The translations under genes and the position numbers were made by a program. This document shows, one piece after another, positions 3,327-23,569 of a DNA stretch of 64,000 bases (positions within the stretch are counted from its first letter, which is position 1; each line of letters starts with the position of its first letter). A model generated the notes under the pieces. The model saw only the letters and a program-made list of their open reading frames with translations. It was not told the DNA's origin and ran no database searches. Source of the stretch: Streptacidiphilus neutrinimicus (GTDB lineage: Bacteria > Actinomycetota > Actinomycetes > Streptomycetales > Streptomycetaceae); NCBI RefSeq assembly GCF_000787815.1, contig NZ_BBPO01000016.1, positions 1-64,000 on the forward strand, written 5' to 3'.

Positions 3327-3439
3327 GCCCAGGCTGGGGCCCTGAGGACTGCGAGGTGACCCGCGTGATCCGGACGGTGCAGGCACGGCGGTACCGCGGG
3401 GTCAGCTCGACGCGGCCCCGCGGAGCCTTCGAGTTCGGC

Positions 3440-3514
3440 GTGGCCCGCAGGCATGTCGACCTGTTGCGGGTGAGCAGCGCGCTGTGTTCGGGCGGCGCAG
3501 CCCTCTGCTGCTGA
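3440..3514 (+). CDS. Cys-containing leader peptide (24 aa)
   Basis: GTG at 3440 to TGA at 3514; the peptide reads ARRHVDLLRVSSALC and ends ALCC, so it has three Cys codons, two adjacent to the stop codon. It fits the H-V-D-L-x-R-V-x-S-A-L-C family. An in-frame GTG at 3365 would give a longer version, but the conserved part starts at 3440; GGAG lies at 3422-3425, a little far. It stands between a SAM-IV riboswitch and the ABC permease at 3624, so the operon has two sulfur sensors in series. TCCTGT (3571-3576) can pair with ACAGGA (3603-3608) just before the permease start. Confidence 0.78.
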   Translation: MARRHVDLLRVSSALCSGGAALCC

Positions 3515-3623: not shown

Positions 3624-4616
3624 ATGAGCAGTTCCGACACATCCGTCCGCCCTTCCACCGCCGTTCTGACCGCCCGTGAGGGTCCCAGCGACCAGGAGTT
3701 GCTCGCTGCACGACTGGTTCCGCTGCGCCGCCCGGGGCGGTGGGTCTCCGCCCTGGTCCTGCTGGTGCTGCTCGCGATGCTCGTCCACAGTGTGCTCACC
3801 AACCCCCGCTTCCAGTGGTCCGTGGTCGCCGACTACTTCCTGGACGGTGCGATCCTGCGCGGACTGGCCTTGACGCTGTGGCTGACGGCCGCGGTCATGG
3901 CCACCGGCTACCTGCTCGGCATCGGCGTCGCCGCGATGCGGCTTTCGCGCAACCCGGTTCTGGTCTCCCTCAGTTTCGGCTTCGTGTGGCTGCTGCGCTC
4001 CGTCCCTCCCCTGGTGCAGTTGCTCTTCTGGTATGAACTCGCCTCGCTGTACCCGCAGTTGTCGCTCGGCATCCCCTTCGGGCGCGAGTTCGTGACGGTG
4101 CGGACCGCGCACTTGTTCAGCGGGGTCCTCGCCGCCTACGTCGGGCTCAGTCTGGATGTGGCCGCGTTCTCCTCGGAGATCGTCCGAGGCGGTCTGCTCT
4201 CCGTCGACCAGGGCCAGACCGAGGCGGCGCAGGCGCTTGGGCTGGGCCGCGCAAAGATCTTCCGCAGGATCGTGCTGCCGCAGGCGATGCCCGCGATCGT
4301 GCCGGCCTCCGGCAACCTGCTGATCGGGATGCTCAAGGCGACCTCGATCGTCAGCGTCATCGCCGTCCAGGACCTGCTCTACTCGGCGCAGCTGATCTAC
4401 AACCAGAACTTCCTGATCGTCCCGCTGCTGTTGGTCGCCACCCTCTGGTACGTCCTGCTGACCACGCTGCTGTCGGTCGGCCAGTTCTTCGTCGAGCGCC
4501 GTTTCGCCCGCGGCAGCAGGCGCCGTGGTGGCGGCAGGGGATTCTGGGACCTGCTGCGCGGCAACGTTCCGCTGCTGGGCGGTTCGCTGCGCAACGGACT
4601 GGTGGGCCTGTCATGA
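3624..4616 (+). CDS. amino-acid-type ABC transporter permease
   Basis: A 330-residue inner-membrane permease of the polar amino acid (HisM/TcyB) type. A cytoplasmic N-terminus with a conserved R-P-G-R-W is followed by a first TM helix (about 40-60), then the core ending with the EAA loop (E-A-A-Q-A-L-G-L, residues about 200-207) that docks the ATPase. It is cotranscribed with an ATPase (4-base overlap) and a lipoprotein binding protein. The SAM-IV riboswitch and Cys leader in front argue for uptake of a sulfur compound such as cystine, a thioether or a sulfonate. The C-terminal tail is Arg/Gly-rich. Confidence 0.9.
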
Positions 4617-5392: not shown

Positions 5393-5420
5393 CGCTCTTC
5401 CCCGATTGAAAGGTTCCTCT

Positions 5421-7446: not shown

Positions 7447-8262
7447 TCAGGCGCGCTCGTGCGGGATCTTCTCTCCGGCCTCGACCGCGGTCGGGAGGCG
7501 GTTCTCGGCGGGAGGCAGCGGGCAGGTGGCCAGGTCGGTGTAGGCGCAGGGCAGGTTGGTCGCCCGGTTGAAGTCGAGCACGACCCGGCCCTGCTCGTCC
7601 GGGGCCGGCACGGCGAGAGCGCGGTTGGCGGCGTAGGTGGTCACGCCGGAGGTGGCGTCGGTGAAGAGCACCAGCAGACTTCCCGGCCGACCGCCTTCGA
7701 ACGCGGTGAGGCGGTGCGTGGAGTCGTCGGGGGTTTTGAACTCGATCTCGCCGGGGGCGTCGTAGACGTGCTCCAGGCCTTCGACGGCCGCGCCGACGGT
7801 CACCGGGCGCGGCGCATCGAACGCCAGGTATCGGCCCGTCAGCGACCAGCGCGGATCCGGGGCGTAGGCCGGGGTGGGGGCGTGTTCGACGCGCAGCTTG
7901 TGGTCGGGGTGGCGCGGGCGAAGGATGTCATGTCCGCCGCGTTTGGCGATCTCGATCACCGCCTCGCCCGCGGTCGCGTACACGCTCGCCCGCTCCGCGA
8001 GGACGCCGAACCGGTGTTGGCCGCGCACCACGGTGCCGTCGACGACGAGCTCCTCGCCGTCGTCGAGTCGGACGCTGACGCCGTCTTCGTCAGCGGACCA
8101 GGTACCGGGGGCGTCGGGGAAGCGGGTGGGTTCGGCGTCCAGCCAGCGCAGGCTGGTGACGGCGAGGAACCCGTGCGGGTCCGTCAGGGCGCGCTCACGT
8201 TCGGCGTGCCACTGCTCCCAAGCATGGGCGAACGCGTCGGTCTCGGTCTCCTGGACGGTCAT
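7447..8262 (-). CDS. DUF1684 family protein
   Basis: A 271-residue DUF1684 protein with the hallmark VLDFNRATNLPCAYTDLATC and PLPPAENRLP followed by A-G-E near the C-terminus. It is the last of six genes in a minus-strand operon with four LLM flavin monooxygenases and a flavin reductase; its ATG overlaps the reductase stop (ATGA, 8259-8262). It is only distantly similar to the DUF1684 protein encoded at 6561-7373. Translational coupling to a flavin reductase suggests a role in the same desulfurisation chemistry, but no reaction is known. Confidence 0.88.
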   Translation of the reverse strand: MTVQETETDAFAHAWEQWHAERERALTDPHGFLAVTSLRWLDAEPTRFPDAPGTWSADEDGVSVRLDDGEELVVDGTVVRGQHRFGVLAERASVYATAGEAVIEIAKRGGHDILRPRHPDHKLRVEHAPTPAYAPDPRWSLTGRYLAFDAPRPVTVGAAVEGLEHVYDAPGEIEFKTPDDSTHRLTAFEGGRPGSLLVLFTDATSGVTTYAANRALAVPAPDEQGRVVLDFNRATNLPCAYTDLATCPLPPAENRLPTAVEAGEKIPHERA

Positions 8263-8786
8263 GGTGTCTCCGGAAGGGTGTCGGTGGTGGCGAGCCGGTG
8301 GAACCGGCTGGCGTGGAAGACCAGCGGCGCCACCGCATGGTCCGCGTCGAGTTCGTGGACGCGCAGCAGCACGATGTCGTGGTCGCCCGCCCGAACCAGG
8401 CGTTCGATGCCGCAGTCGAATCGGGCGCTCGCGCCGTCGATCAGCACGGCCCCGTCCGGGGCGGCGATCCAATTCAGGCCGGCAAACCGGTCGCCGTCCC
8501 GGGAGGCGAGCCGGCGGCAGGCGTCGGCCTGGTGCGCGCCGAGCACGCTGACGCCGATCCTGGCGCGATCGCGCAGCAGCGGCCAGGTGGTCGAGGTGTG
8601 GGCGACGCAGACGGAGACCAGGGGCGGGTCGAGCGACACGGAGGTGAAGGAGCTGGCGGCCATACCGACCGGCGTGCCGTCGTCGGCGAGCGCGGCGAGG
8701 GCGGTGACCCCGGAGGGGAAGGCGCCGAAGGCGTGCCGCAGTTCCTGCTGCCCCAGGGGCCGGAGCTCCGCCGGTGCCGCGGTCAT
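8259..8786 (-). CDS. flavin reductase family protein
   Basis: A 175-residue NAD(P)H:FMN reductase of the HpaC/flavin reductase-like type, the small partner that supplies reduced FMN to LLM monooxygenases. Family signs are F-G-A-F-P-S-G-V-T near the start, A-S-S-F-T-S-V-S-L-D-P-P-L-V-S-V-C, and R-A-G-D-H-D-I-V. The start at 8786 gives an ATGA overlap with the preceding monooxygenase; an in-frame ATG at 8798 would add four residues but sits too close to a Shine-Dalgarno. Its closest relative in the window is the reductase at 25477. Confidence 0.9.
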   Translation of the reverse strand: MTAAPAELRPLGQQELRHAFGAFPSGVTALAALADDGTPVGMAASSFTSVSLDPPLVSVCVAHTSTTWPLLRDRARIGVSVLGAHQADACRRLASRDGDRFAGLNWIAAPDGAVLIDGASARFDCGIERLVRAGDHDIVLLRVHELDADHAVAPLVFHASRFHRLATTDTLPETP

Positions 8787-9916
8787 CGGTTGTCCCATTC
8801 CTCGGCGAGCAGCTCGTAGGAGCGGAGCCGGTCGTCGTGCTGGTGCGTGATGGTGGTGATGATCAGCTCGTCCGCGCCGGTGGCGTCGCGCAACGTCTCC
8901 AGCTGATCGGCGACCTGGCGGGGCGAGCCGACGAACTGGGTCTCGACGCGGTCTGCGACCAGTGCCCGGTCGGCCTCGGTCCAGGTGTACTCGCGGGCCT
9001 CATCAGGGGTGGGGAAGGGGATGGCGCCATCGCCGCTGCGGATGCTGCGCACCCACAGGCCGTAGCCGGTGGCCAGCTCGCGGGCGGTGGCCTCGTCCTC
9101 GGCGACCACGACGTCGGCGGAGACGCTGACATACGGACGGTCCAGCTCGTCCGAGGGCTTGAACGCGGCGCGGTAGGCGTCCGCGGCCTCCAGCACGGTG
9201 GCCGGGCTGACGTGGTAGTTGGCGGCGAACCGCAGCCCGTGCTCGCCCGCGATCTCGGCGCTGATCCCGGCGCTGCTGCCGAGGATCCACACCTGCAGGT
9301 CCGCGCCCTCGCCGGGCACGACGTGCGCCTCGACGCCGTCCCCGGTGACGTACGTCCCCGACAGCAGGGCGAGGATGTCGGCGATCTGCTCGTCGTAGGG
9401 CTGGGACTCGGCGCCCGGCAGCTGCAGCAGCTGCCGGTGGAGGGCGAAGCGCGGGTGGCGCAGCAGGTGCTCGTAGGAGAACCGGCCCGGTATCCGCAGC
9501 CCGTTCGGCGTGTAGCCGCCGACCACGGCCGCCGCTCCGAGCAGGGCGGGCTCGCGAGCGGCCGACGGCACGGCCCTGCCGCCGGAGCGACCCAGCCCGA
9601 GGTCGAGCCGGCCCGGATGCAGCGCGTCGAGCAGCCCGAACTCCTCGACGGTGGCGAGCGCGGTGCGGTGGCCGAGCTGCACGGCTCCGGCGCCGAGGCG
9701 GATCGTCGAGGTCGCCGCGGCTGTCAGCGCCAGGACCACGGCTGGGGAGGTGCCCGCGACGCCTGGGTTGAGGTGGTGCTCGGCGAACCAGTAGCGCGCG
9801 TAGCCGAGGTCCTCGGCGTGCTGCGCCAGGTCGATGCTGTTGCGCAGGGCCTGCTTCGCGTCGGAGCCGGAGGAGATCGGCACGAGGTCCAGGACAGTGA
9901 GCGGGGTGTTGGCCAT
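8783..9916 (-). CDS. LLM-class flavin monooxygenase (MsnO8-like)
   Basis: A 377-residue luciferase-like monooxygenase. The N-terminus (L-T-V-L-D-L-V-P-I-S-S-G), A-E-D-L-G-Y-x-R-Y-W-F-A-E-H-H and the D-L-G-L-G-R-S-G-G motif are typical of the LLM class called MsnO8. ATG at 9916 is preceded by GAAGGA. It lies in the operon between another LLM enzyme and the flavin reductase. The substrate is unknown; a sulfur- or carbon-heteroatom bond is expected from context. Confidence 0.85.
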   Translation of the reverse strand: MANTPLTVLDLVPISSGSDAKQALRNSIDLAQHAEDLGYARYWFAEHHLNPGVAGTSPAVVLALTAAATSTIRLGAGAVQLGHRTALATVEEFGLLDALHPGRLDLGLGRSGGRAVPSAAREPALLGAAAVVGGYTPNGLRIPGRFSYEHLLRHPRFALHRQLLQLPGAESQPYDEQIADILALLSGTYVTGDGVEAHVVPGEGADLQVWILGSSAGISAEIAGEHGLRFAANYHVSPATVLEAADAYRAAFKPSDELDRPYVSVSADVVVAEDEATARELATGYGLWVRSIRSGDGAIPFPTPDEAREYTWTEADRALVADRVETQFVGSPRQVADQLETLRDATGADELIITTITHQHDDRLRSYELLAEEWDNR

Positions 9917-9935
9917 GTTGGTGATCCTTCGTGGG

Positions 9936-11039
9936 TCAGGGCGTCGTGGCGGCGGCCGGGACCGGCGCATCGGTTCCGGGTGCGCCGGTCACCGGGCCCC
10001 AGGGCCATGGCGGGTCGGGGATCTCGCGGCGCAGCGTAGGAGCGATGTCGGACTGGAACAGCTCCAGGCTGTCCCGATGCTGGGCGCGTGTGAGGCCGTC
10101 GGCGTCGGCGTGCAGGTGCAGCACGCTGTGGCCGAGCTGCTCGTGGTAGCGGTGCACCTTCTCGATCACCTGCTGCGGGCTGCCGATCAGCGCGGAGCTG
10201 CGCTCGACGAAGTCCTCCAGGGTGGAGAAGACCGGCTCCAGGCCGAGCCGCTTCTGGAAGGCCAACCGGCCCTCGAAGACCGGCCGGTAGGCGGCCAGTG
10301 CCTCCTGAGAGGTCCGTGCGGCGTAGTAGCCCGCCGTCCCCGCCCCCACGGTGGCCGACGCCGGGTCGTGGCCGTAGTGCTCCCACCGCTCGCGGTAGTG
10401 GCGCACGAGTTCGGCGTAGGGCTCCACCGGGTTGGTGACGTTGGCGGAGAACAGCGGGTCACCGTAGCGGGCGGCCAGGTCGACCGACTCGCGGCTGGTC
10501 GCGCTGCCGTGCCACACCCGGACGGGCTGCTGGAACGGGCGCGGCCACACCTCGGCCTCCGTCAGCTCGGGCCGGAATCGCGCCTTGAACGACACCTTGT
10601 CCTGCCGCCAGATGCGCCGGAACAGTTCGTAGGACTCGGCGTTTCGATCCCACTGGTCCTCGGGCGTGACCTGGAACAGATCCCGCTGGGCCGAGCCGTT
10701 GCCCTTGCCGATGATCAGCTCCAGGCGACCGCCGGAGAGATGGTCGAGGGTGGCGTAGTCCTCGTAGGCGCGCACCGGGTCGAGCAGGCTCAGCGTGGTG
10801 ACCGCCGTGAACAGCCGGATCCGGTGCGTGAGCGCGGCGATGTGGCTCAGCACCACCGGCGGCGAGGAGGAGATGAACGGCCGCTCGTGGCGCTCGCCGA
10901 CCCCGAACCCGTCGAAGCCCAGCTCCTCGGCGAACAGCGCGTTCTCCACGACCTCCTGGAAGCGCTCCTGCGTCGACGTCCGCGCCCCGGTGACCGGGTC
11001 GGGCGCGTGCACGATCAGCGTGATGGCGAGGAACTTCAT
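9936..11039 (-). CDS. LLM-class flavin monooxygenase
   Basis: A 367-residue luciferase-like monooxygenase, group with N-terminal M-K-F-L-A-I-T-L-I. Typical stretches are A-E-E-L-G-F-D-G-F-G-V-G-E-R-H, T-L-S-L-L-D-P-V-R and D-H-L-S-G-G-R-L-E-L-I-I-G-K-G. The ATG overlaps the stop codon of the upstream LLM gene (11036-11039). The C-terminal tail is Pro/Ala-rich. It is part of the minus-strand sulfur operon that starts with a SAM-IV riboswitch. Confidence 0.85.
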   Translation of the reverse strand: MKFLAITLIVHAPDPVTGARTSTQERFQEVVENALFAEELGFDGFGVGERHERPFISSSPPVVLSHIAALTHRIRLFTAVTTLSLLDPVRAYEDYATLDHLSGGRLELIIGKGNGSAQRDLFQVTPEDQWDRNAESYELFRRIWRQDKVSFKARFRPELTEAEVWPRPFQQPVRVWHGSATSRESVDLAARYGDPLFSANVTNPVEPYAELVRHYRERWEHYGHDPASATVGAGTAGYYAARTSQEALAAYRPVFEGRLAFQKRLGLEPVFSTLEDFVERSSALIGSPQQVIEKVHRYHEQLGHSVLHLHADADGLTRAQHRDSLELFQSDIAPTLRREIPDPPWPWGPVTGAPGTDAPVPAAATTP

Positions 11040-12406
11040 GAGGCCGCCGCCGCTCGGACGGAGAGAGGGGCCAGGCCCAGGTGGTCGCGCAGCGTCTCGC
11101 CCGCGTACTCGGTGCGGAACACGCCGCGCTCTTGGAGCAGCGGGACGACTCGGTCGGCGAACTCGTCCAGGCCGCCCGGGGTCAGGTGCGGCACCAAGAT
11201 GAACCCGTCGCTCGCATCGGTCTGCACGAACTCGTTCAGTTGCTCGGCGACATGGGCGGGGGTCCCGATGAACGACTGACGTCCGGTCACCTCCACGATC
11301 AGGTCACGGATGGAGAGCTTCTTGGCGTCCGCCAGGGCGCGCCACTCGGAAGCCACGGTCAGCGGGTCGCGGTGCATCCGCACCGAAGCCCGGCCCTGGG
11401 CCACGGTGTGTTCGCCGACCAGCGGGTCCACCTCGGGGAGAGGACCGTCCGGGTCGTAGGCGGACAGGTCACGGTTCCACAGCTGCTCCAACAGCTTGAT
11501 CGCGGTCTGGCCGCTCACCTGCTGACGGCGGATCACCAGCGCTCTCTCCTGGGCCTCGGCGTCGGTTTCGCCGAGGACGAAGGTGACGCCGGGCAGGATC
11601 TTCAGCTCGTCGGGGGAGCGGCCGTAGCGGGCGAGGCGTCCCTTGACGTCGCCGTAGAAGGCGCGACCCGCCTCCAGGGTGCCGTGGCGGGTGAAGATCG
11701 CGTCGGCGGCGGAGGCGGCGAACTCGCGGCCGGCCTCGGAGTCTCCGGCCTGGAAGATCACCGGGCGCCCCTGCGGGCTGCGCGGGACGTCGAAGCGGCC
11801 GGAGATGTCGAACTCGCCGACGTGGTGGTCGAACCGGCCCGGATTCGGGTCGCGCAGGAAGACCCCGGACTCCTTGTCCGCGACGATCTCGTTGCCGCGC
11901 CAGGAGTCGAACAGCTCCCAGGTAGCGTTCAGGAACTGCCGGGCGCGCTCGTAGCGGTCCTCCTGTGCCAGGAACCCGCCGCGGCGGAAGTTCTCGCCGG
12001 TGAACGCGTCCCAGGAGGTGACCACATTCCAGGCGGCACGCCCGGCGGAGAGGTGGTCGAGCGAGGCGAACTGCCGTGCCACCTCGTAGGGTTCGTTGAA
12101 GGTGGAGTTGATGGTCCCGGCCAGGCCGAGCCGGTCGGTGACGGCGGCGAGTGCGGCCAGTACGGTGAAGGTGTCGGGTCGTCCCACCACGTCGAGGTCG
12201 TAGATCTCGCCGTTCTGCTCGCGCAGTCGCAACCCCTCGGCCAGGAAGAGGAAGTCGAACTTGGCGCGCTCGGCGGTCCGCGCGAGGTGGACGAAGGAGC
12301 TGAAGTCGATCTGGCTGCCGGCGGCCGGGTCGCTCCAGACGGTGGTGTTGTTGACGCCGGGGAAGTGCGCGGCGAGGTGGATCTGCTTGAGCGGCTTGCT
12401 GCTCAT
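11036..12406 (-). CDS. NtaA/SnaA/DszA-type flavin monooxygenase
   Basis: A 456-residue LLM enzyme of the nitrilotriacetate/pristinamycin IIA/dibenzothiophene-sulfone monooxygenase group. Signs are L-A-A-H-F-P-G-V-N-N-T-T-V-W near the start, F-L-A-E-G-L-R-L-R, S-T-F-N-E-P-Y-E-V-A-R, the A-A-W-N-V-V-T-S motif, and the end R-G-V-F-R-T-E-Y-A-G-E-T-L-R-D-H-L-G-L. Length is normal for the group. It depends on FMNH2 from a partner reductase, probably the one encoded at 8259-8786. Confidence 0.88.
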   Translation of the reverse strand: MSSKPLKQIHLAAHFPGVNNTTVWSDPAAGSQIDFSSFVHLARTAERAKFDFLFLAEGLRLREQNGEIYDLDVVGRPDTFTVLAALAAVTDRLGLAGTINSTFNEPYEVARQFASLDHLSAGRAAWNVVTSWDAFTGENFRRGGFLAQEDRYERARQFLNATWELFDSWRGNEIVADKESGVFLRDPNPGRFDHHVGEFDISGRFDVPRSPQGRPVIFQAGDSEAGREFAASAADAIFTRHGTLEAGRAFYGDVKGRLARYGRSPDELKILPGVTFVLGETDAEAQERALVIRRQQVSGQTAIKLLEQLWNRDLSAYDPDGPLPEVDPLVGEHTVAQGRASVRMHRDPLTVASEWRALADAKKLSIRDLIVEVTGRQSFIGTPAHVAEQLNEFVQTDASDGFILVPHLTPGGLDEFADRVVPLLQERGVFRTEYAGETLRDHLGLAPLSVRAAAAS

Positions 12407-12427: not shown

Positions 12428-13690
12428 TCAGACGAGCGCTGCGGTGGCGTCAACGGCGCCCGCCGCGTAGCGGTTGGCGGGGCGCGGCAGGCCGAGCAGG
12501 CCGCGCAGGGTCGACGCCTCGTAGGCGGTGCGGAAGATTCCCCGGCGCTGCAGTTCGGGCACCAGGCCGCGGGTGATCTGTTCCAGGTCGTAGGGGAGCG
12601 TTCCGGGCCGCAGCCGGAAGCCGGTGAGCCCGGCGCGCTGCCACTCCTGCAGCAGGTCGGCGAGCTCCGCCGGGGTTCCGGTGAAGACGGCGGCGTCGCT
12701 GGTGAGCGCGGCGCCGGCCTTCCGGTCCAGGCGTGCCTTGCAGTCGGCTGCGGCACCGGGGTCCTCGTCGAGGAAGACCACCAGGTCCCCGAAGATGTGC
12801 ACGGTCTCGTCCGCGCGGCCCGCGGCCGCCTGGGCCGCACGGATCTCGGCGACGAGCTGCCGCGCGTGCTCGCTGTCGTGCGGAGTGACGAACCCCAGAT
12901 CGCCCGACCGGCCGACCAGACGGTAGGGCTCGCCACGGTGGGCGAGGGCGGCGACGACCGGCTGGCCCTGCGGCGGACGCGGGGTGATGGAGGGCCCGCG
13001 CACGCTGAACCGGCTGCCCTCGAAGTCGATGTAGTGCAGCTTCTTGCGGTCGATGAACCGGCCCGTGGCGACATCGCGGATCTCCGCGTCGTCCTCCCAG
13101 CTGTCCCACAGGCGCCGCAGCACCTCGACGTAGTCCTCCGCCTCGCCGAAGAGCTCCTCCAACGCCGCCTGCCCTGACGGCGAGTCGAAGTCCTCCGCAC
13201 TCACCCGGGGCGCCTCGCGCCGCCCGAAGTGCGCGAACTCGTCGGCGCGCCCGGAGACCTTCACCCGGATGCCGGCGCGGCCGTTGCTCACGTAGTCGAG
13301 GGTGGCGATCGCCTTGGACAGGTGGAACGGCTCGGTGTGGGTCACCACGGCGGTCGGCACCAGCCCGATGTGGCGGGTCAGCGGCGCGATCCGCGCGGCG
13401 ATCAGGACCGCGTCGAGTCGGCCGCGCACCTGGTCGGTCCGTTCGTCGGGCTCGAAGGGATGGGCGGACTGCAGGCTGAGCGAGTCCTCGATGGTGACCA
13501 GGTCCAGCAGGCCGCGCTCGGCCTCGGCGACCAGGTCGGCCCAGTAGCGGGCGGTGAACAGTTCCTCGGGCCGGGCGTCGTGCTCGCGCCAGGCGGCGGG
13601 GTGCCAGCCGGCGCCGTCGAGGGCGACGGCCAGGTGCAGGAGACCGCGCTCGTCGGGCAGGGGAGCGTCGGGCTGGGGGGATTCGGGCAT
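12428..13690 (-). CDS. LLM-class flavin monooxygenase (NtaA-type)
   Basis: A 420-residue LLM monooxygenase, first gene of the six-gene minus-strand operon. It has L-H-L-A-V-A-L-D-G-A-G-W-H-P near the start, V-T-I-E-D-S, A-T-L-D-Y-V-S-N-G-R-A-G, and the NtaA-type end R-G-I-F-R-T-A-Y-E-A-S-T-L-R-G. ATG at 13690 is supported by a GGAAGCGG sequence about 10 bases upstream and by the start of homology; the open frame continues upstream without family resemblance. A Cys leader peptide (13901-14011) and a SAM-IV riboswitch (14067-14177) precede it. Confidence 0.85.
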   Translation of the reverse strand: MPESPQPDAPLPDERGLLHLAVALDGAGWHPAAWREHDARPEELFTARYWADLVAEAERGLLDLVTIEDSLSLQSAHPFEPDERTDQVRGRLDAVLIAARIAPLTRHIGLVPTAVVTHTEPFHLSKAIATLDYVSNGRAGIRVKVSGRADEFAHFGRREAPRVSAEDFDSPSGQAALEELFGEAEDYVEVLRRLWDSWEDDAEIRDVATGRFIDRKKLHYIDFEGSRFSVRGPSITPRPPQGQPVVAALAHRGEPYRLVGRSGDLGFVTPHDSEHARQLVAEIRAAQAAAGRADETVHIFGDLVVFLDEDPGAAADCKARLDRKAGAALTSDAAVFTGTPAELADLLQEWQRAGLTGFRLRPGTLPYDLEQITRGLVPELQRRGIFRTAYEASTLRGLLGLPRPANRYAAGAVDATAALV

Positions 13691-13900
13691 GGGAGACCGC
13701 TTCCGGTTCGAAAGGGAGGTGTGGTCCGAAGGTGACGCCTGCCGAGACGCGCACCGCGCCACGGCAGGCGGCCCGCTGAGCGGAACCGGCCCCGCGGCGG
13801 ACAGCTGGGGACGGACGGCACGAACGGGGCGGGCGCCGAATGGCAAGCGCGGATCAGGCGGAGGAGGCGTGCGGCGCGACGGTGCGCGGCACGAGGCGTC

Positions 13901-14011
13901 CTAGGAGGCCGGACACAGCGCGGTGGTCACGCGCTGCAGATCGATGTGGAGCCGTGCGAACGTGGTGGTGACGCGGCAACGGGCCTTGACGGTGACGGCA
14001 GCGAACGGCAT
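13901..14011 (-). CDS. Cys-containing leader peptide (36 aa)
   Basis: ATG at 14011 to TAG at 13901 on the minus strand. The end reads FARLHIDLQRVTTALC followed by PAS, a clear member of the H-[VI]-D-L-x-R-V leader family; one further Cys codon lies upstream. A hairpin of CGTGC-C-GCGC with its near-complement (about 13866-13893) follows the stop. It stands between the minus-strand SAM-IV riboswitch and the first monooxygenase gene, so the same two-sensor order is present as in the two plus-strand ABC operons. Confidence 0.78.
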   Translation of the reverse strand: MPFAAVTVKARCRVTTTFARLHIDLQRVTTALCPAS

Positions 14012-14066
14012 ACGGGTCTGTCGCACTCTCGTCACCTCCGTCCCCGTCGGCTGGCACCGGTTCGAA

Positions 14067-14177
14067 CTCGCGCTTACGGCGCCGTCTTCGGCGTCGCCGG
14101 GTCATCACCTGGGGCACCCCGCCGCGTGGGAGGGTTGCCGGTCAGCAAGCCAGGGCTTGATGCTGACACTCGTGACC
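14067..14177 (-). promoter_or_regulatory. SAM-IV riboswitch (minus strand)
   Basis: Reverse-complement copy of the SAM-IV core, including AAGCCCTGGCTTGCTGACC, GGCAACCCTCC and GGGGTGCCCCAGGTGATGAC, with P1 closed by GGTCAC and the ATGACC side. The TAAGCGCGAG tail (14067-14076) is also conserved. It controls the minus-strand operon of four LLM monooxygenases, a flavin reductase and a DUF1684 protein. Confidence 0.9.
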
Positions 14178-14185
14178 TGGCAGAA

Positions 14186-14214
14186 CCGTAACCCGACAGC
14201 GGCCCCCGACACAA
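14186..14214 (-). promoter_or_regulatory. candidate promoter of the minus-strand monooxygenase operon
   Basis: On the minus strand TTGTGT (14209-14214) and TTACGG (14186-14191) are 17 bases apart, ending 9 bases before the SAM-IV element. Position and spacing fit a housekeeping promoter; the -10 box is a weak match. Confidence 0.4.
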
Positions 14215-14349
14215 TCCCGTTGAAATCCCAACGATCACCGGCGCCGCCGGAGCTTGCCGGATCCCGGGGCGCCCCCAACCGGCGGCCATGCGCGGGTGTT
14301 TGACGCACCTGTCGCGTATCCCAACCGGATCTCACGCCTCGGTCCGGCG

Positions 14350-14379
14350 TTGACATCTGCCGGACCAGGCTTCTAGCTT
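14350..14379 (+). promoter_or_regulatory. candidate promoter of the second ABC operon
   Basis: A perfect TTGACA (14350-14355) and TAGCTT (14374-14379) are 18 bases apart and end 13 bases before the plus-strand SAM-IV element. This is the best housekeeping-type promoter among the riboswitch operons. Confidence 0.55.
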
Positions 14380-14392
14380 TGCCGACCAGAAC

Positions 14393-14495
14393 GGTCATGA
14401 GCGTCAGCGACAAGCCCTGGCTTGCTGACCGGCAACCCTCCCCACGCGGCGGGGTGCCCCAGGTGAGGACCGGACCGAACTCTCGGTAAGCGCGA
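14393..14495 (+). promoter_or_regulatory. SAM-IV riboswitch
   Basis: The third SAM-IV copy: P1 GGTC/GACC, core AAGCCCTGGCTTGCTGACC, GGCAACCCTCC, GGGGTGCCCCAGGTGAGGAC, a small CCGA/TCGG hairpin and the conserved TAAGCGCGA at 14487-14495. It precedes the leader peptide at 14530-14664 and the ABC operon at 14838-17757. It lies about 215 bases from the divergent minus-strand copy. Confidence 0.92.
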
Positions 14496-14529
14496 TGCCC
14501 CTCGGGGCGGAATGGCACAGGTGACGGCG

Positions 14530-14664
14530 ATGCACGCAGCTCCGGGGACGGCCGCAGGCCGCCACCGCGGTCGTGCTGCCGCGTTCCTGAACCGTGCCGT
14601 CGACCTGCTGCGGGTCAACAGCGCCCTGTGTACGGGCGCCGACTGTCCTCTTCAGCAGAGCTGA
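14530..14664 (+). CDS. Cys-containing leader peptide (44 aa)
   Basis: The conserved part reads [15 protein letters not shown] followed by T-G-A-D-C, with two Cys codons, stopping at TGA 14664. His of the usual H-V-D-L is replaced by Ala. In-frame starts at 14512 (ATG), 14521 (GTG) and 14530 (ATG) are possible; none has a strong Shine-Dalgarno. A 7-bp GC hairpin with a 3-base loop (14673-14689) begins 9 bases after the stop codon, well placed to respond to ribosome release or stalling. The ABC permease starts at 14838. Confidence 0.72.
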
Positions 14665-14837
14665 CAGCCTCCCCCGGCCTTCGGCCGGGACGTACATCTC
14701 GCACGCCCGGCGCGGCGTGCACCCCTGCCTCCCGCCCTCGCGTGGCGCGCTGCGGCGCGCCCCGGGGCGGCATCCCCCGCCGTGTGGCGGTGCCCGTCGG
14801 CACGGGCGCCGGCACCCGCCTTCGCCGGAGTTCACCC

Positions 14838-15863
14838 ATGAGCGACGCTCTCGTCCCCGCCGTTCCCCCGGACACGGCGCGCCCCCGGGACACCGACCCG
14901 CCGCCCCAAGCCGCCGCGGCGCCGGCCGAGACCACCTCCACCGCCGACGCGCGGTCCGCGCAGCGGGTGATCCCGCTGCGCCACCCGGGCCGCTGGATCG
15001 TCAGCGTGGGCGTGCTGGTCCTGGTCGCCCAGATCGTCCACGGGCTCGCGACCAACCCCTTCTACCAGTGGGACCGGTTCCAGTACTGGTTCGCCCGACC
15101 CGTCCTGATGAACGGGCTGGTCATCACCCTGGAGGTCACCGCCTACAGCGCCCTGCTCGGGCTCGCGGGCGGCATCGTCCTCGCCCTGGCCAGGCTCTCC
15201 CGCAGCCCGGTGCTGCGCGCGATCAGCTGGGTCTACGTCTGGCTGTTCCGCTCGGTGCCGCTGATCGTGGTGCTTCTCTTCCTCTACAACTTCAGCGCCC
15301 TGTACCGAACGCTCAGCGTCGGCGTGCCGTTCGGGCCGGCGTTCTGGCACTTCGACGAGTCGAAACTGGCGACCGACATGGTGATCGCGGTCGTCGGGCT
15401 GAGCCTCAACGAGGCCGCCTACGCCGCCGAGGTCGTGCGCGCCGGCATCCTCTCGGTCGACCAGGGCCAGCACGAGGCCGCAGCGGCGCTCGGACTGCCC
15501 AGGCGCTACCAGTTCGCCCGGATCGTCTTCCCGCAGGCGCTGCGCGCCATCGTCCCTTCCTACGTCAACCAGCTGATCGGCCTGGTGAAGGGCACCTCGC
15601 TGGTCTTCTACGTGTCGCTGCTGGACCTGTTCGGCTCGGTCCAGAGCATGGGCAGCACCTACCCGGGCGACATCGTGCCGCTGCTGCTGGTCGCCACCGT
15701 CTGGTACGTGATCCTCACCAGCGTCGTCTCCGTGGTCCAGTTCTACGTCGAACGCCACTACTCGCGCGGCGCCCTGAGGACCCTGCCGCCGACCCCGGTG
15801 CAACGCCTGCGCCACGGACTGTCCACCCTCATCGTCCGCGTCCGGAAGGAGACCGCGTCATGA
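14838..15863 (+). CDS. amino-acid-type ABC transporter permease
   Basis: A 341-residue permease of the same type as that at 3624, with a long Pro/Ala-rich cytoplasmic N-terminus, R-H-P-G-R-W before the first TM helix, and the EAA loop [11 protein letters not shown] at 14838 follows CCGGAG (14825-14830); the frame is open further upstream but that part shows no family resemblance. It is cotranscribed with an ATPase and a binding protein behind a SAM-IV riboswitch and Cys leader, so import of a sulfur compound is inferred. Confidence 0.9.
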
Positions 15864-16669
15864 GCGTCCTGAACCCCGAGCTGGACAGCCCCGTGGATGC
15901 GGACACCGTACCCGTCGCGGTCGAGGTCCACGATGTCCACAAGTGGTACGGGGCCCACCGGGTCCTGGACGGAATCGACCTGACCGTGGCTCCGGGCGAG
16001 GTGACGGCCATCATCGGCCCGTCCGGCTCAGGCAAGTCGACCCTGCTTCGGGTGATCAACCACCTGGAGCAGCCGCAGCTCGGCCACGTGAGCCTGGGCG
16101 GCGAACCGGTCGGTGTCCGGTGGCACCGGGGCAGGCTGAAGGAGTTGAGCGAGCGCCAGATCCTGGCCCAGCGCGGCCGGATCGGTTTCGTCTTCCAGAA
16201 CTTCAACCTCTTTCCGCACCTGACCGTCCTGGACAACGTGGCCGCCGCGCCCGTCGCGACCGGCCAACTGCGCAAGCCCGAGGCCCAGCGCTGGGCACGC
16301 GAGCTGCTGGACCGGGTAGGGATGGGGGAGAAGGCCGCCGCCTACCCGCGGCAGCTGTCCGGCGGTCAGCAGCAGCGGGTCGCGATCGCCCGCGCGCTCG
16401 CGCTGCGGCCGGGCGTCATCCTCTTCGACGAACCCACCTCCGCCCTCGACCCGGAACTGGTCGGCGAGGTGCTCGCCGTCATCAAGGACCTGGCCGCGAG
16501 TGGCACCACCCTCGTCATCGTCACCCACGAGATCGGCTTCGCCCGCGAGGTCGCCGACCGCGTCGTCTTCATGGACGGCGGTCGGATTCTCGAACAAGGC
16601 AGCCCGGCCGAAGTGCTGGACCAGCCGCGGCATCCGCGCACCAGGGAGTTCCTGAGCCGCGTCCTCTGA
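15860..16669 (+). CDS. amino-acid-type ABC transporter ATP-binding protein
   Basis: A 269-residue ABC ATPase with Walker [10 protein letters not shown] at 53-61, Q-loop [12 protein letters not shown] near 111-122, LSGGQ at 166-170 and [16 protein letters not shown] shortly after. All motifs are intact. The ATG overlaps the permease stop codon (15860-15863), with AAGGAG in front. It is closely similar to the ATPase at 4613, so the two transporters are probably paralogous systems for related substrates. Confidence 0.93.
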
Positions 16670-16728
16670 GCCCCGTCCACTGCGACCCGACCAACCCATC
16701 ACCGGCACCGAACAAGCAAGGAACAGCC

Positions 16729-17757
16729 ATGACCGGCATCCGCACCAGCAGAGTCCTCCGCAGCCTGTCCGCAGGCACTGCCGCCGCCACGCTCACCGTC
16801 GGCCTCGCCGCCTGCGGAAGCGCCGCCTCTTCCTCTGCCGCCACCTCCGCGGACCACGCATCGACCGGCGCGGTCACCGTCGCCGCCCTCGCCAACGGCG
16901 CGGGCACCGAGACCGACATCAAGGTCGCCGAAGTCACCTCCCTGCACGCCGAGCTGCCGGCCTCGATCGCCAAGAGCGGCCAGCTGGTCATCGGCGTCGG
17001 CGCGTTGCCCGCCGGCTTCCCGCCCCTCGCCTTCGTCGGCAGCGACCAGCAGACCCTCACCGGCGCCGAACCCGACTTCGGCCGCCTGGTCGCCGCCGCC
17101 CTCGGCCTCAAGCCCGTCGTGCAGAACTCCACGTGGGAGAACCTCTTCGTCGGCATCGACAGCGGCCGCACCGATGTCGGCTTCTCCAACATCACCGACA
17201 CCGAGGAGCGCAAGAAGAAGTACGACTTCGCCTCCTACCGCGAGGACAACCTCGCCTTCGAGGTCACCAAGTCCAGCACCTGGAACTTCAACGGCGACTA
17301 CACCACCCTCGCGGGCAGGACCGTCGCGGTCAGCGCCGGCACCAACCAGGAGAAGATCCTCCTGGAGTGGCAGGCCAAGCTGAAGGCCGCCGGCAAGCAG
17401 CTCACGGTCAAGTACTTCCCCGACAACAACGCCACCCACCTCGCGCTGGTCGGCGGCAAGATCGACGCCTACTTCGGCCCGAACCCCGGCATCGCCTACC
17501 AGATCGCCCAGGACGCCAAGACTCCCAACCCCACCCGCAACGCCGGCACCTACTCCGGCGCGGGCGCCTCCTTGCAGGGGCTCATCGCGGCGACGACGAA
17601 GAAGGACAGCGGGCTCGTCAAGCCGATCGCCGACGCCATCAACTACCTCATCAAGAACGGCCAGTACGCCAAGTGGCTCGCCGCCTGGAACCTGTCCAAC
17701 GAGGCCGTCCCCACCTCCGAGATCAACCCGCCCGGCCTGCCGCTCACCAACTCCTGA
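16729..17757 (+). CDS. ABC transporter substrate-binding lipoprotein
   Basis: A 342-residue family-3-type binding protein with a signal peptide ending in L-A-A-C (Cys29). The mature part carries S-G-Q-L-V-I-G-V-G, the ligand-pocket region T-E-E-R-K-K-K-Y-D-F-A-S-Y and V-G-G-K-I-D-A-Y-F-G-P-N. AAGGA lies 6 bases before the ATG. It shares the D-x-x-L-H-A-E-L-P segment after the lipobox with the protein at 5421, showing the two are related. A strong terminator follows at 17791-17820. Confidence 0.9.
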   Translation: MTGIRTSRVLRSLSAGTAAATLTVGLAACGSAASSSAATSADHASTGAVTVAALANGAGTETDIKVAEVTSLHAELPASIAKSGQLVIGVGALPAGFPPLAFVGSDQQTLTGAEPDFGRLVAAALGLKPVVQNSTWENLFVGIDSGRTDVGFSNITDTEERKKKYDFASYREDNLAFEVTKSSTWNFNGDYTTLAGRTVAVSAGTNQEKILLEWQAKLKAAGKQLTVKYFPDNNATHLALVGGKIDAYFGPNPGIAYQIAQDAKTPNPTRNAGTYSGAGASLQGLIAATTKKDSGLVKPIADAINYLIKNGQYAKWLAAWNLSNEAVPTSEINPPGLPLTNS

Positions 17758-17790
17758 TCGTCCGCGCCCCGCTGCGCGCCGACTCCGACA

Positions 17791-17820
17791 GGCGGACCCC
17801 GGCACCCGCCGGGGTCCGCC
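17791..17820 (+). terminator. hairpin terminator after the second ABC operon
   Basis: A perfect 13-bp stem (GGCGGACCCCGGC and its complement) with a 4-base loop lies 33 bases after the binding-protein stop codon. It separates the ABC genes from the GNAT gene, which could still be read through. Confidence 0.75.
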
Positions 17821-17855
17821 CCTCGACCCCTTGCGTGAGGGAGAACCGCACCATC

Positions 17856-18623
17856 GTGTCCACCAGCGTCCACTCGCCGCAGTCACCGGAGCGCCTCGGC
17901 GCGCCACCGCATCCCCTCGACAACCCCGCCTGGGCCGCCCTCACCGGCCCGCACGCCCACCTCGCCGAACGCCTCGGCCGCGCCGCCCGCTACCCCGTCG
18001 ACGTCTCCCCGTTCACCGCCCTTGCCGACCCGGCCGACCCCAGCGCCTGGCGCGACCTCGCCACCCTGGTCGGGCAGGGGAACGTGACCGCCGTGAACGG
18101 GGCGATCACCGCACCCCCCGAGGGCTGGGAGATCGTGGAGTCCGGGCAGGGCGTGCAACTCGTGGACACCGCGCTCCGGGTGGAACCGGCCCCCGAGGCG
18201 ATCCGCCTCGGCCCCGACGACGTGCCCGAGATGCTCGCTCTCGTGGCCCGTACCAAGCCGGGGCCGTTCCTGCCCCGCACCGTCGAACTGGGCACCTACC
18301 TCGGCATCCGACGCGACGGCCGCCTTGTCGCCATGGCCGGCGAACGCCTGCACCCGCCCGGCTGGACCGAGATCAGCGCCGTGTGCACCGACCCGGACCA
18401 CCGCGGCCAGGGACTGGCGACCCGCTTGGTCCGCGCCGTCGCCGCCGGAATCAGGCAACGAGGGGAGACGCCGTTCCTGCATGCCGCCGCCGCGAACACC
18501 AGCGCCATCCGCCTCTACGAGTCCATCGGCTTCACCCTGCGGCGCCGCACCTCTTTCCTCCTCGTCCGCGCGCCGCAGCCGCAGGGAGCATCCGAATCCG
18601 TCCGCCACGCGGACCGTGCCTGA
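17856..18623 (+). CDS. GNAT family N-acetyltransferase
   Basis: A 255-residue protein with a C-terminal GNAT fold: acetyl-CoA binding D-H-R-G-Q-G-L-A-T-R-L (about residues 182-192), then F-L-H-A-A-A-A-N-T-S-A-I-R-L-Y-E-S-I-G-F. The N-terminal 100 residues are a family-specific extension. GTG at 17856 follows GAGGGAGA at 17837-17844. It lies downstream of the riboswitch-controlled ABC operon but after a terminator. Acetylation of an imported amino compound or a sulfur metabolite is possible; the substrate is unknown. Confidence 0.85.
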   Translation: MSTSVHSPQSPERLGAPPHPLDNPAWAALTGPHAHLAERLGRAARYPVDVSPFTALADPADPSAWRDLATLVGQGNVTAVNGAITAPPEGWEIVESGQGVQLVDTALRVEPAPEAIRLGPDDVPEMLALVARTKPGPFLPRTVELGTYLGIRRDGRLVAMAGERLHPPGWTEISAVCTDPDHRGQGLATRLVRAVAAGIRQRGETPFLHAAAANTSAIRLYESIGFTLRRRTSFLLVRAPQPQGASESVRHADRA

Positions 18624-20279: not shown

Positions 20280-20566
20280 CCGGCCTGCCGCAGACGCACT
20301 CCTGCGCACGCGCCACGCGGCGCTGACTGCCGCGCTTCCGCGCCTGCCTTCTTCGCGTTGACGCCGGCCGGCGCCTTCCACATCCGCGAGCCACGGGCGT
20401 CACCGCGTCATGCCCTGACGTAACGCCAGGCCTCGCCATCGCCACGCCTCTCGTCCGTCATGCGCACGTTCGTCGTCTCCTGGCGCCGTCATGCCGTTGC
20501 TCCGCCTGGCGTGCCGCCTCGTCGCCGCCCGTGCACACCGTCCGTCACCGGAAGGAAACCGCCCCC

Positions 20567-21520
20567 ATGAGCAGCACGCCCACCGTCCGTCCCGTCGCCG
20601 GTCACATCGGCGCCGACATCGACGGCGTCGATCTCGCGCAGCCGCTGTCGGCCGAGGCCGTCGACATCGTCAAGCAGGCCCTGCACCGCCACAAGGTCGT
20701 CTTCTTCCGGGGCCAGAGCCTCGACCACGGCACCCAGATCGCCTTCGCGCGCCAGTTCGGCGAGCTGACCTACGCCCACCCGCACGACGACGCCCCGCCG
20801 GCGGACCACCCGGAGATCTTCACGGTCGACCCGCGCCGCTTCGAGGAGCGCTACGGCAAGGGCTTCCGCGACGAGTACCGCAAGCGTCAGTACAGCTACA
20901 CCGACGGCTGGCACACCGACGTCACGGCCGCGGTGAACCCGCCGTCCGGGTCCATCCTGCGCGCCGAGACCGTTCCCGAGGTCGGTGGCGACACCCAGTG
21001 GACCAACCTCGTCGCCGCGTACGAGGGGCTGTCCGCTCCCGTCCGTGCCTTCGTGGACACCCTGCGGGCCGAGCACCGCTACGGCGGCGGTCGGGCGGCC
21101 GACGGGGACAGCGAGTACGCCCGCCGGATCAACGACAACCTGCTGGTGGCCGTCCACCCCGTGGTGCGGGTGCACCCCGAGACCGGGGAGCGCGCGCTGT
21201 TCGTGAACCCGGTCTTCACCAGCCACATCGTCGACGTCACCCCGACCGAGAGCAAGCGCATCCTCGACCTGCTCTACGCGGAGATCACCCGGCCCGAGTA
21301 CACGGTGCGCTTCCGCTGGGAGACCGGACACGTCGCCTTCTGGGACAACCGCGCCACTGCGCACCTGGCCCCGCGCGACCTGGAGCACCTCGACGTGGAG
21401 CGCCGCCTGCACCGGGTCACCCTGATCGGCGAGGTGCCCGTCGGACCGGACGGACGTGAGTCCGAGCTCCTCGCCGGACGCCCCTTCACGGCCGACCACC
21501 GCGTCGCCGTCGCCTCCTGA
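20567..21520 (+). CDS. tauD: TauD/TfdA-family dioxygenase (taurine dioxygenase)
   Basis: A 317-residue Fe(II)/2-oxoglutarate-dependent dioxygenase. The metal triad is visible as H116-x-D118 (in W-H-T-D-V-T) and H266 (in N-R-A-T-A-H), with the 2-oxoglutarate arginine near R283. G-A-D-I-D-G-V-D-L near the start is typical. Such enzymes oxidise taurine or related sulfonates (some act on alkyl sulfates) to release sulfite or sulfate. GAAGGA at 20551-20556 precedes the ATG. It is the first gene of a seven-gene sulfonate operon. Confidence 0.88.
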   Translation: MSSTPTVRPVAGHIGADIDGVDLAQPLSAEAVDIVKQALHRHKVVFFRGQSLDHGTQIAFARQFGELTYAHPHDDAPPADHPEIFTVDPRRFEERYGKGFRDEYRKRQYSYTDGWHTDVTAAVNPPSGSILRAETVPEVGGDTQWTNLVAAYEGLSAPVRAFVDTLRAEHRYGGGRAADGDSEYARRINDNLLVAVHPVVRVHPETGERALFVNPVFTSHIVDVTPTESKRILDLLYAEITRPEYTVRFRWETGHVAFWDNRATAHLAPRDLEHLDVERRLHRVTLIGEVPVGPDGRESELLAGRPFTADHRVAVAS

Positions 21521-21596
21521 CACCACCCCACCGACATCGCGCCGCGCACCAGAGCGCAACCGACCCGCGCGTCCGACCGGAAGGATCAGTACGTCC

Positions 21597-22664
21597 GTGT
21601 CCACACCCCAGGGCGTCTCCGCCCCGAACCGAAGACTGTTCCTGCAGACCCTCCTCGGCGCCGGTGCGGCGCTCGGCCTGAGCGCCTGCACCAGTGCGGC
21701 CGCCAGTGGTCCGGCGCTGGCGAGCAGCGCCGCACTGCCCACGGCGGTGCCCACCGGCACCGGCCTGCGCATCGCCTCCGCACTCGGCGCCGAGCAGCTC
21801 CAGCTCCAGCTCTCGGGTCTGATCAAGCAGATCCCGTTCACCGTCTCCTCCTGGCCGAACATCGCCGCCGGACCGGACGTCATCAACGCCTTCCGGGCCA
21901 ACTCGCTCGACCTGGCCAACAACGCCGGCATCCCGCCGATCCAGGCGCACTTCCAGGGCTACGACGCCCGCATCGTGGCCCTCGACCTGACCCGCAAGCC
22001 GAACTACCTGTTCGCGACCAAACCGCACAGCGACATCCAGTCGGTGGCGCAGTTCGCGGGCAAGAAGCTGGCCTTCTCCCAGGGACAGGCTCAGGGCGTG
22101 GTGCTGCTGCGGGCGCTGCGCGAGGCCGGGCTCAAGGACTCCGACGTGCAGCTCGTTCCGCTGACCAGCAACCAGTTCCTGACCGCGCTGGAGGCCGGCC
22201 AGGTGGACATCGCGCCGCTGGCGATCTCCCAGGCCCCCGCCTATCTCAACCGCTACGGCTCCGACGGCGCGCACACCATCACCACCGATGTGGTGGACCT
22301 GCTCAACCTGCTGTGGGCCCCGGCCCAGGTGCTGGCGGACGCCGACAAGGCGGCGGCGGTCGCGGCCTTCATTCCCATCTGGGCCAAGGGCCTGGTCTGG
22401 GTCTACGAGAACCCCACCGTGTGGGAGCAGGAGTACTACGTCAAGACGCAGAACATCAGCCTCACTCAGGCCCAGCAGGTGACCGCGCTGAGCAACAAGC
22501 CTCTGCTGCCCCCGAGTTGGGATGAGGCGATCGCCTGGGAGCAGCAGACCGTCGACCTGTTGGCGCAGGGCGGCTACGTGAAGTCCTTCCAGGCCGAGAC
22601 GCTCTTCGACCGCAGGTTCGAGCATCTGGCGGCTGCCGCCGTCCCCGCCCAGTACCGGAGCTGA
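21597..22664 (+). CDS. sulfonate-type ABC transporter substrate-binding lipoprotein
   Basis: A 355-residue SsuA/TauA-like binding protein. The N-terminus has twin Arg (R12-R13, P-N-R-R-L-F-L-Q) and a lipobox L-S-A-C (Cys31), so it is a Tat-exported lipoprotein. The mature part shows the NMT1/SsuA pattern: N-A-F-R-A-N-S-L-D-L-A-N-N-A-G-I-P-P, then K-K-L-A-F-S-Q-G-Q-A-Q-G. GTG at 21597 follows GGAAGGA. The permease gene begins two bases after its stop codon. Confidence 0.88.
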   Translation: MSTPQGVSAPNRRLFLQTLLGAGAALGLSACTSAAASGPALASSAALPTAVPTGTGLRIASALGAEQLQLQLSGLIKQIPFTVSSWPNIAAGPDVINAFRANSLDLANNAGIPPIQAHFQGYDARIVALDLTRKPNYLFATKPHSDIQSVAQFAGKKLAFSQGQAQGVVLLRALREAGLKDSDVQLVPLTSNQFLTALEAGQVDIAPLAISQAPAYLNRYGSDGAHTITTDVVDLLNLLWAPAQVLADADKAAAVAAFIPIWAKGLVWVYENPTVWEQEYYVKTQNISLTQAQQVTALSNKPLLPPSWDEAIAWEQQTVDLLAQGGYVKSFQAETLFDRRFEHLAAAAVPAQYRS

Positions 22665-22666
22665 CC

Positions 22667-23569
22667 ATGGCCGACCACGTATCCTCCACCGCCGTGGTGA
22701 CAGCGCCCGAGCGCACCGTCACCCGGCCGGCTCCCGGCCCGGTACCCGAATCCGGGCCGGTCCGGAGGGCGACGGCGACCGGACGCCCCCGGACGCGCCG
22801 GCTCTCCCCGGGCAAGCGCCGTCCCTATGCCCGACTGCTGGGCCCGCTGCTCCTGCTGGCCGTGTGGGCGGTGGCCAGCGCGGCCGGGCTGCTGGACCCG
22901 CGGGTCCTGCCCGCGCCTTGGACCGTCCTGCACACGGGCGCGCATCTGTGGACAACAGGAACGCTGCGCACCGATCTGGGCACCTCCCTGTGGCGTGCGG
23001 CCCAGGGCTTCGCCATCGGCCTGGTCGCGGGCGTGGCGCTGGCACTGTTGGCCGGCCTGAGCCGGATCGGCGAGGCACTGATCGACGGCACGGTGCAGGT
23101 CAACCGCGCGGTGCCGACGCTCGGCCTGATCCCGCTGTTCATCCTGTGGCTGGGCATCGGCGAGACGTTCAAGATCGTCATCATCGCGATCGTCGTCTAC
23201 ATCCCGGTCTACCTCAACCTGCACGCCGCCCTGGCCGGGATCGACGCCCGCTACGTCGAACTCGCCGAGACCCTTCGGCTGAGCCGCTGGCAGTTCGTCC
23301 GACAGGTCGTCATCCCCGGTGCCCTGCCCGGCTTCTTCGTCGGACTGCGCCTGGCCGTCACCGGCTCCTGGCTCTCCCTGGTCGTCCTGGAGCAGATCAA
23401 CGCCACCGACGGCCTCGGCTACATGATGTTCCAGGCGCAGAACTACGGCCAGACCGACGTCATCGTCCTCGGACTGCTCATCTACGGAGTCTTCGGATTC
23501 GCCTCCGACTCCGCCGTCCGTCTCCTGGAAAGGAGGGTCCTGACATGGCGCCGATCGCTCAGCAGCTGA
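22667..23569 (+). CDS. ssuC: sulfonate-type ABC transporter permease
   Basis: A 300-residue permease of the SsuC/TauC family. A long basic N-terminus precedes TM helices; P-T-L-G-L-I-P-L-F-I-L-W-L-G-I-G-E is a family hallmark, and the E-A-A-like loop is Y-V-E-L-A-E-T-L-R-L-S. ATG is 2 bases after the binding-protein stop codon. It forms the taurine/alkanesulfonate importer with the neighbouring lipoprotein and ATPase. Confidence 0.92.
   Translation: MADHVSSTAVVTAPERTVTRPAPGPVPESGPVRRATATGRPRTRRLSPGKRRPYARLLGPLLLLAVWAVASAAGLLDPRVLPAPWTVLHTGAHLWTTGTLRTDLGTSLWRAAQGFAIGLVAGVALALLAGLSRIGEALIDGTVQVNRAVPTLGLIPLFILWLGIGETFKIVIIAIVVYIPVYLNLHAALAGIDARYVELAETLRLSRWQFVRQVVIPGALPGFFVGLRLAVTGSWLSLVVLEQINATDGLGYMMFQAQNYGQTDVIVLGLLIYGVFGFASDSAVRLLERRVLTWRRSLSS

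Follow-up and report, generated by a model that had tools for sequence, protein, structure and literature searches.

Two divergent operons and the region between them

The window, i.e., the whole 64,000-nucleotide stretch analyzed here, comes from contig NZ_BBPO01000016.1 of Streptacidiphilus neutrinimicus. It contains two divergent operons, separated by a region in which the same elements occur on both strands. An earlier note on this DNA had read the order as promoter, SAM-IV riboswitch, cysteine leader, and operon, with a monooxygenase operon to the left and an ABC import operon to the right. The order was borne out on both strands by Rfam matches and the sequence, and the operon assignments by NCBIfam and Pfam, which identify luciferase-like (LLM) monooxygenases with a flavin reductase on the left and a polar-amino-acid-type importer on the right. 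The features are listed below, together with those of a third SAM-IV/leader unit.

3212-3328, plus strand: third SAM-IV aptamer (RF00634, 106.6 bits)
3365-3514, plus strand: third Cys leader, 49 aa, GTG at 3365, RRHVDLLRVSSALCSGGAALCC (NF042934, 30.4 bits, cut-off 27; sequence)
3624-4616, plus strand: permease of the ABC importer behind the third unit (3212-3514), with the ATPase at 4613 and the binding protein at 5406
8259-12406, minus strand: left operon after its first gene, full span (NCBIfam)
8259-8798, minus strand: flavin reductase (NCBIfam)
8783-9970, minus strand: MsnO8 family LLM gene (NCBIfam)
9936-11039, minus strand: CE1758-like LLM gene (NCBIfam)
11036-12406, minus strand: NtaA/DmoA-type LLM gene (NCBIfam)
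12428-13690, minus strand: first left gene, NtaA/DmoA-like LLM monooxygenase (TIGR03860, 265 bits, cut-off 279.7)
13691-13900, minus strand: spacer behind the left leader, rich in C on the transcribed strand and proposed to load Rho (C 0.49 and G 0.28 as group means; no fold conserved)
13901-14026, minus strand: left Cys leader, 41 aa, GTG at 14026, C-terminus ARLHIDLQRVTTALCPAS (NF042934, 29 bits, cut-off 27; core pN/pS 0.39)
13913-13915, minus strand: TGT, the conserved Cys codon in the left leader (present in 21/21 leaders of the LLM type)
14032-14039, minus strand: left leader Shine-Dalgarno (SD), GGAGGTGA (sequence; same motif in relatives)
14065-14177, minus strand: left SAM-IV aptamer (RF00634, 107.1 bits, full model 1-116)
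14185-14214, minus strand: putative left promoter, -35 TTGTGT at 14214-14209, -10 TACGGT at 14190-14185 (sequence and relatives' spacing)
14350-14379, plus strand: putative right promoter, -35 TTGACA at 14350-14355, -10 TAGCTT at 14374-14379 (sequence and relatives)
14393-14498, plus strand: right SAM-IV aptamer (RF00634, 102.4 bits, full model 1-116)
14519-14524, plus strand: right leader SD, AGGTGA (GGTGA or AGGTGA in 67/77 relatives)
14530-14664, plus strand: right Cys leader, 44 aa, ATG at 14530 (NF042934, 19 bits, below the cut-off of 27; 77 homologous leaders in the same place in relatives)
14629-14631, plus strand: TGT, the conserved Cys codon in the right leader (present in 77/77 leaders of the PermR type)
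14665-14837, plus strand: spacer behind the right leader, likewise rich in C and proposed to load Rho (C 0.49 and G 0.26 as group means)
14838-15863, plus strand: first right gene, polar amino acid type ABC permease (TIGR01726, 57.9 bits, cut-off 42.2)
15864-18623, plus strand: right operon after its first gene, full span (Pfam, ORFs)
ending at 16669, plus strand: ABC ATPase (Pfam, ORFs)
16729-17757, plus strand: SBP_bac_3 binding protein (Pfam)
ending at 18623, plus strand: GNAT acetyltransferase (Pfam, ORFs)

SAM-IV is a proven aptamer class and, by all precedent, an OFF switch. Aptamers were identified with the Rfam covariance model RF00634 (gathering score, 38 bits). The left (14065-14177, minus) and right (14393-14498, plus) copies are full-length and lie far above the gathering score, which confirms the two mirror-image SAM-IV riboswitches of the earlier note, and from this class membership both are predicted to bind SAM. 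The long inverted repeat between the arms (50 and 31 nt) exists because the two aptamers are homologous; the repeats are the aptamers themselves. According to Rfam, the genome carries the three copies of the window and a fourth elsewhere. At three other divergent pairs (L088, L089, and L094), the opposite arm carries a longer SAM-IV variant of up to ~147 nt with an enlarged first hairpin. For a SAM-IV leader of S. clavuligerus, strong premature termination has been observed by RNA-seq (PMC8269248).

Each of the two mirror aptamers is preceded by a promoter-like pair. On the left, TTGTGT-18-TACGGT ends 7 nt ahead of the aptamer, and on the right, TTGACA-18-TAGCTT ends 13 nt ahead of it. The gap from the -10 to SAM-IV is 7 nt in 17/21 LLM-type relatives; in PermL types the -10 box lies mostly 7 nt ahead of aptamer nucleotide 1, and in PermR types mostly 12-13 nt ahead, with a very regular TTGACA-18-TA..T. 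A generic sigma-70 scan of the window region reported no promoter, owing to the stricter rule that it applies. On both arms, transcription very probably begins at, or immediately ahead of, the first SAM-IV nucleotide, and the constant distance makes transcripts starting downstream of SAM-IV unlikely.

A strong SD and a short ORF come within ~5-50 nt after the aptamer. We assigned leader starts by the conserved SD (GGAGGTGA on the left, AGGTGA on the right, and GAGGTGA in the third unit), and the 44 aa previously given for the right leader stood, whereas the 36 aa given for the left became 41 aa from the GTG at 14026. The right copy (N-R-A-V-D-L-L-R-V) departs from the R-x-x-x-D-L-x-R-V core that the two were said to share; the ending common to all three window leaders is D-L-x-R-V-x-x-A-L-C. 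The right leader, although below the NF042934 threshold, matches its homologues in core, place, and codon pattern. Against the Ms4527A Cys-rich leader model NF042936 (cut-off, 45 bits), the window leaders reach 14.8 and 23.9 bits, and they differ from the leaderless polycysteine uORFs of mycobacteria in that window-type leaders are SD-led, start well behind the aptamer, and have 1-4 Cys codons. A further sub-threshold NF042934 match (24.4 bits) lies at 236-289 of the window, minus strand, with no adjoining SAM-IV. Many PermR, PermL, and LLM types, also those lacking SAM-IV, have a GC-rich hairpin (GGCCC..GGGCC or GGC-GNRA-GCC) directly 5' of the leader SD.

Regarding the operons, S-alkyl-cysteine salvage in B. 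subtilis comprises acetylation, two flavoenzymes, and a flavin reductase (PMC10863075). The importer, acetyltransferase, LLM monooxygenases, and flavin reductase of the window resemble such a set, and if they serve this role, cysteine would be the pathway product. On a Streptomyces plasmid, the permease, ATPase, binding protein, GNAT, leader, LLM, and NtaA follow one another in one row. A PGAP “putative leader peptide” between GNAT and LLM (L267:10446-10607) is a second leader inside the operon. Near the mirror pair, at 20531-23569 of the window, lies a further organosulfur set of a TauD-type dioxygenase, an NMT1-like binding protein, and an ABC permease.

The leader recurs with and without SAM-IV

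From GTDB genomes, we took the 80 relatives closest to the right permease and looked for SAM-IV within 900 nt upstream. SAM-IV was present in 52/80, and the leader lies between it and the gene in all 52; the leader is also kept in 25 of the 28 relatives without SAM-IV. The pairing of SAM-IV and leader, counted here over related and so not independent sequences, is not due to chance. At 11 permease loci lacking SAM-IV, Rfam found none ahead of the leader, and the only two matches were both on the opposite arm. Replacement by another riboswitch was rejected for the same 11 loci, as Rfam reported none ahead of the leader. Between promoter and leader, five loci with SAM-IV missing (L133, with CAAGCGCGAGGCCC, L147, L161, L171, and L177) contain a scrap resembling the SAM-IV 3' end. 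Together, the leader-only loci and the scraps indicate that SAM-IV and the leader are separate modules in series. Since the leader is retained without SAM-IV, the constant element is the leader with its promoter, and it is SAM-IV that is gained or lost.

All 14 Streptacidiphilus genomes have SAM-IV, and five of the 14 have a divergent SAM-IV pair. Nine more genomes with such a pair were found among 103 other Streptomycetaceae with at least two SAM-IV matches, which brings the Streptomycetaceae total to 14 genomes. The divergent leader pairs of Streptacidiphilus come with two, one, or no SAM-IV. The suggestion that both arms obey identical signals therefore holds for this genome but not as a fixed feature, and the mirror arrangement is one case of a widespread module. 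In the SAM-IV tree, an arm tends to cluster with its counterpart at the corresponding operon of other species rather than with the partner arm, although most forks are weakly supported. Consequently, each leader seems to have moved along with its operon, and the grouping, weak as its support is, does not favor an origin of one arm by recent duplication of the other. Among 30 core SAM-IV copies examined in the family (L032-L061), no such leader was found within 450 nt, except at one accessory copy (L053).

The outside-family sample comprised 62 SAM-IV-bearing loci with 63 SAM-IV matches, mostly from other Actinomycetes families, with gene names read from translations alone. A D-L-x-R-V leader follows SAM-IV in 4/62 of these loci, ahead of the following genes:

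L234: FMN-reductase-like gene
L240: PAPS-reductase/CysD-like gene
L241: SBP_bac_3 gene
L253: MsnO8-type LLM gene

The last locus, from another actinobacterial family, has a divergent SAM-IV pair (L253:959-1287), of which the class V aminotransferase arm has no leader. Mycobacteria-like loci (L212, L218, and L252) have Cys-rich short ORFs (LTRCCCR, IVCRC) between SAM-IV and an O-acetylhomoserine sulfhydrylase.

Selection on the leader core and its cysteine codon

We computed pN/pS over a 19-codon segment including the core, for 70 PermR-type, 20 LLM-type, and 10 PermL-type leaders. In frame, the ratios were 0.38, 0.39, and 0.31, respectively, compared with 1.4-4.0 in the other frames. The earlier proposal that the leaders are under selection is thus upheld, and by this measure the selection on the core is at the protein level; the N-terminal parts gave no such pN/pS signal.

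In A-L-C, the Cys is encoded by TGT in 108/108 leaders (77/77 PermR-type, 21/21 LLM-type, and 10/10 PermL-type), a count over related sequences, which are not independent events. For comparison, TGT accounts for 22% of the Cys codons in 636 genes of the same loci, and at Cys positions closer to the N-terminus of these leaders, TGC outnumbers TGT by 71 to 5. Unlike TGT, the other conserved leader codons vary synonymously. TGT also stands at the aligned Cys in the other readable NF042934 leaders of the genus, this being the last Cys in the TKRRAVDLCRVAACLC type. Most LLM-type leaders have only one Cys codon from the core onward.

Composition and folding of the post-leader spacers

From leader stop to gene start, the distance is 139-468 nt. 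In all three types, these spacers have C at 0.49 and G at 0.26-0.28, compared with C at 0.41 and G at 0.31 in the controls, i.e., the stretches upstream of the other genes at these loci. The difference in C-richness, itself a weak proxy for Rho, has p from 1e-3 to 3e-20 across types. The spacers show little or no excess folding, with mean z-scores of -0.69 (PermR-type), -0.13 (LLM), and 0.25 (PermL). We found no intrinsic terminator with a U-tract in the window region and no conserved alternative pairings in PermR-type spacers (RNAalifold, ~ -3 kcal/mol), so that both elements of a trp-type attenuator, the U-tract terminator and the competing antiterminator, were missing. Masking of the leader SD by SAM-IV was considered and rejected, as the unpaired probability of the SD is about the same with the aptamer folded away or partly open (0.37/0.37 for PermR, 0.24/0.29 for LLM, and 0.19/0.29 for PermL).

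A proposed two-sensor model for each arm

We propose that each arm is a two-sensor 5' leader, in which two OFF signals, SAM and charged Cys-tRNA, would act serially on one transcript; we assign this reading a probability of roughly 0.6. SAM bound to SAM-IV would turn expression off, either by cutting transcription short or by blocking initiation on the leader ORF, and at low SAM the leader ORF would be translated. With charged Cys-tRNA, the ribosome would complete the leader and depart, Rho would load on the C-rich spacer, and transcription would stop. With scarce Cys-tRNA, a ribosome stalled at UGU would shield the spacer, and the operon would be made. With such serial gates, the importer and oxygenase operons would be switched on jointly, and only at low levels of both SAM and cysteine.

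For the final step, Rho-dependent termination relieved by the UGU-stalled ribosome appears to fit best, as judged only from the C-rich composition and the missing terminators. Rho was earlier suggested for mycobacterial cys leaders (PMC1262725), and for the M. tuberculosis Mbox a riboswitch acting via a uORF and Rho has been shown (PMC12810186). A tentative extension of the model, which we regard as possible but not probable, is that D-L-x-R-V-x-x-A-L-UGU serves to arrest the ribosome and is poised on a Cys codon read by wobble, such that a small drop in Cys-tRNA would stall the ribosome and SAM-IV would decide ribosome access. If so, a single transcript would carry a hard-wired gate for two sulfur end products, a modular part used across actinobacteria to which SAM-IV is freely added and from which it is freely lost.

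The chief rival is translational attenuation, in which the leader ribosome would unmask the SD of the first gene or couple translation to it, with no premature stop of transcription. Mycobacterial cysteine uORFs are reported to work in this way (Canestrari 2020, cited by PMC9094748 and PMC13236596), and in many PermR-type leaders the GCTCCGC of the DLLRV codons could pair, as an anti-SD, with the CGGAG of the permease SD. However, a CTG as second Leu codon (15 of the 76 leaders with Leu there) breaks this pairing, which was rejected as a candidate; the RNAalifold result gives no conserved fold, and the stop-to-start distance is long and variable for coupling. We consider this rival unlikely. 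More doubtful is a nascent-chain arrest peptide that would sense something besides Cys-tRNA charging, with the Cys merely part of the arrest sequence. The conservation of D-L-x-R-V-x-x-A-L over about ten residues ahead of the Cys, beyond what codon sensing would need, and the use of as few as one Cys codon, few for a codon-count attenuator, both speak for this reading and appear to count against a Cys-tRNA model; it does not fit well with a Cys codon frozen as TGT among free neighbors, or with targets that are sulfur genes throughout.

Attenuation of the classical type, in which the leader would be followed by an intrinsic terminator and its antiterminator, is improbable: many PermR-type spacers have a GC hairpin ~20-45 nt past the leader stop and their mean z-score is negative, but the U-tract terminator and conserved competing pairings are missing, and the LLM and PermL types have no extra folding. 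Finally, that SAM-IV is the sole working sensor and the short ORF a passenger would agree with the proven aptamer class and with the lack of a leader at most core SAM-IV copies, but is very improbable given that the leader outlasts SAM-IV in 25 permease loci and is under selection.

Relation to known systems and significance

The two-sensor reading can be set beside several known systems. The SAM-IV copies described here are like others of RF00634 in being full-length (102-107 bits) with a promoter directly upstream, but they are followed by a Cys leader, whereas the core streptomycete copies examined have none within 450 nt. In Firmicutes, ubiG-type operons combine an S-box with a Cys T-box, and SAM and Cys-tRNA jointly control a sulfur operon. 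There, the sensors are two RNAs, one of them antisense; here, they would be an aptamer and a leader peptide in series. With the “putative leader peptide” of NF042934 and the mycobacterial polycysteine uORFs (Ms4527A type; Canestrari 2020, as cited by others), the leaders share a short ORF with a RHVDLLRVSSALC-like conserved end ahead of sulfur genes; unlike these, they are SD-led, have one to four Cys codons instead of a Cys run, and lie behind a SAM aptamer. The M. tuberculosis Mbox-uORF-Rho leader (PMC12810186) and the B12 riboswitch-uORF (PMC11260477) also place a translated uORF after a riboswitch, with Rho proposed or shown, but their uORFs are not reported as amino acid sensors, whereas the uORF here is probably a second sensor. 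Contiguous (tandem) riboswitches likewise put two sensors on one transcript; the survey of these (PMC12452182) covers aptamer pairs, and its text does not mention leader peptides.

SAM-IV and the Cys leader are thus each already known singly, and riboswitch-uORF-Rho leaders are already known in mycobacteria. In the literature searched, we found no description of a Cys leader placed in series behind a SAM aptamer, a search that was incomplete and leaves the absence unproven. The relatives in which SAM-IV is cleanly missing are ready-made controls for the contribution of each sensor, and the frozen TGT codon offers a one-base handle on cysteine sensing in a leader family that NCBI annotates as “putative” only. 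If the two-sensor reading is true, these arms would represent a naturally occurring gate with two inputs, one from a metabolite aptamer and the next from an amino-acid leader peptide, that act serially on the same sulfur operons and recur in several actinobacterial families.
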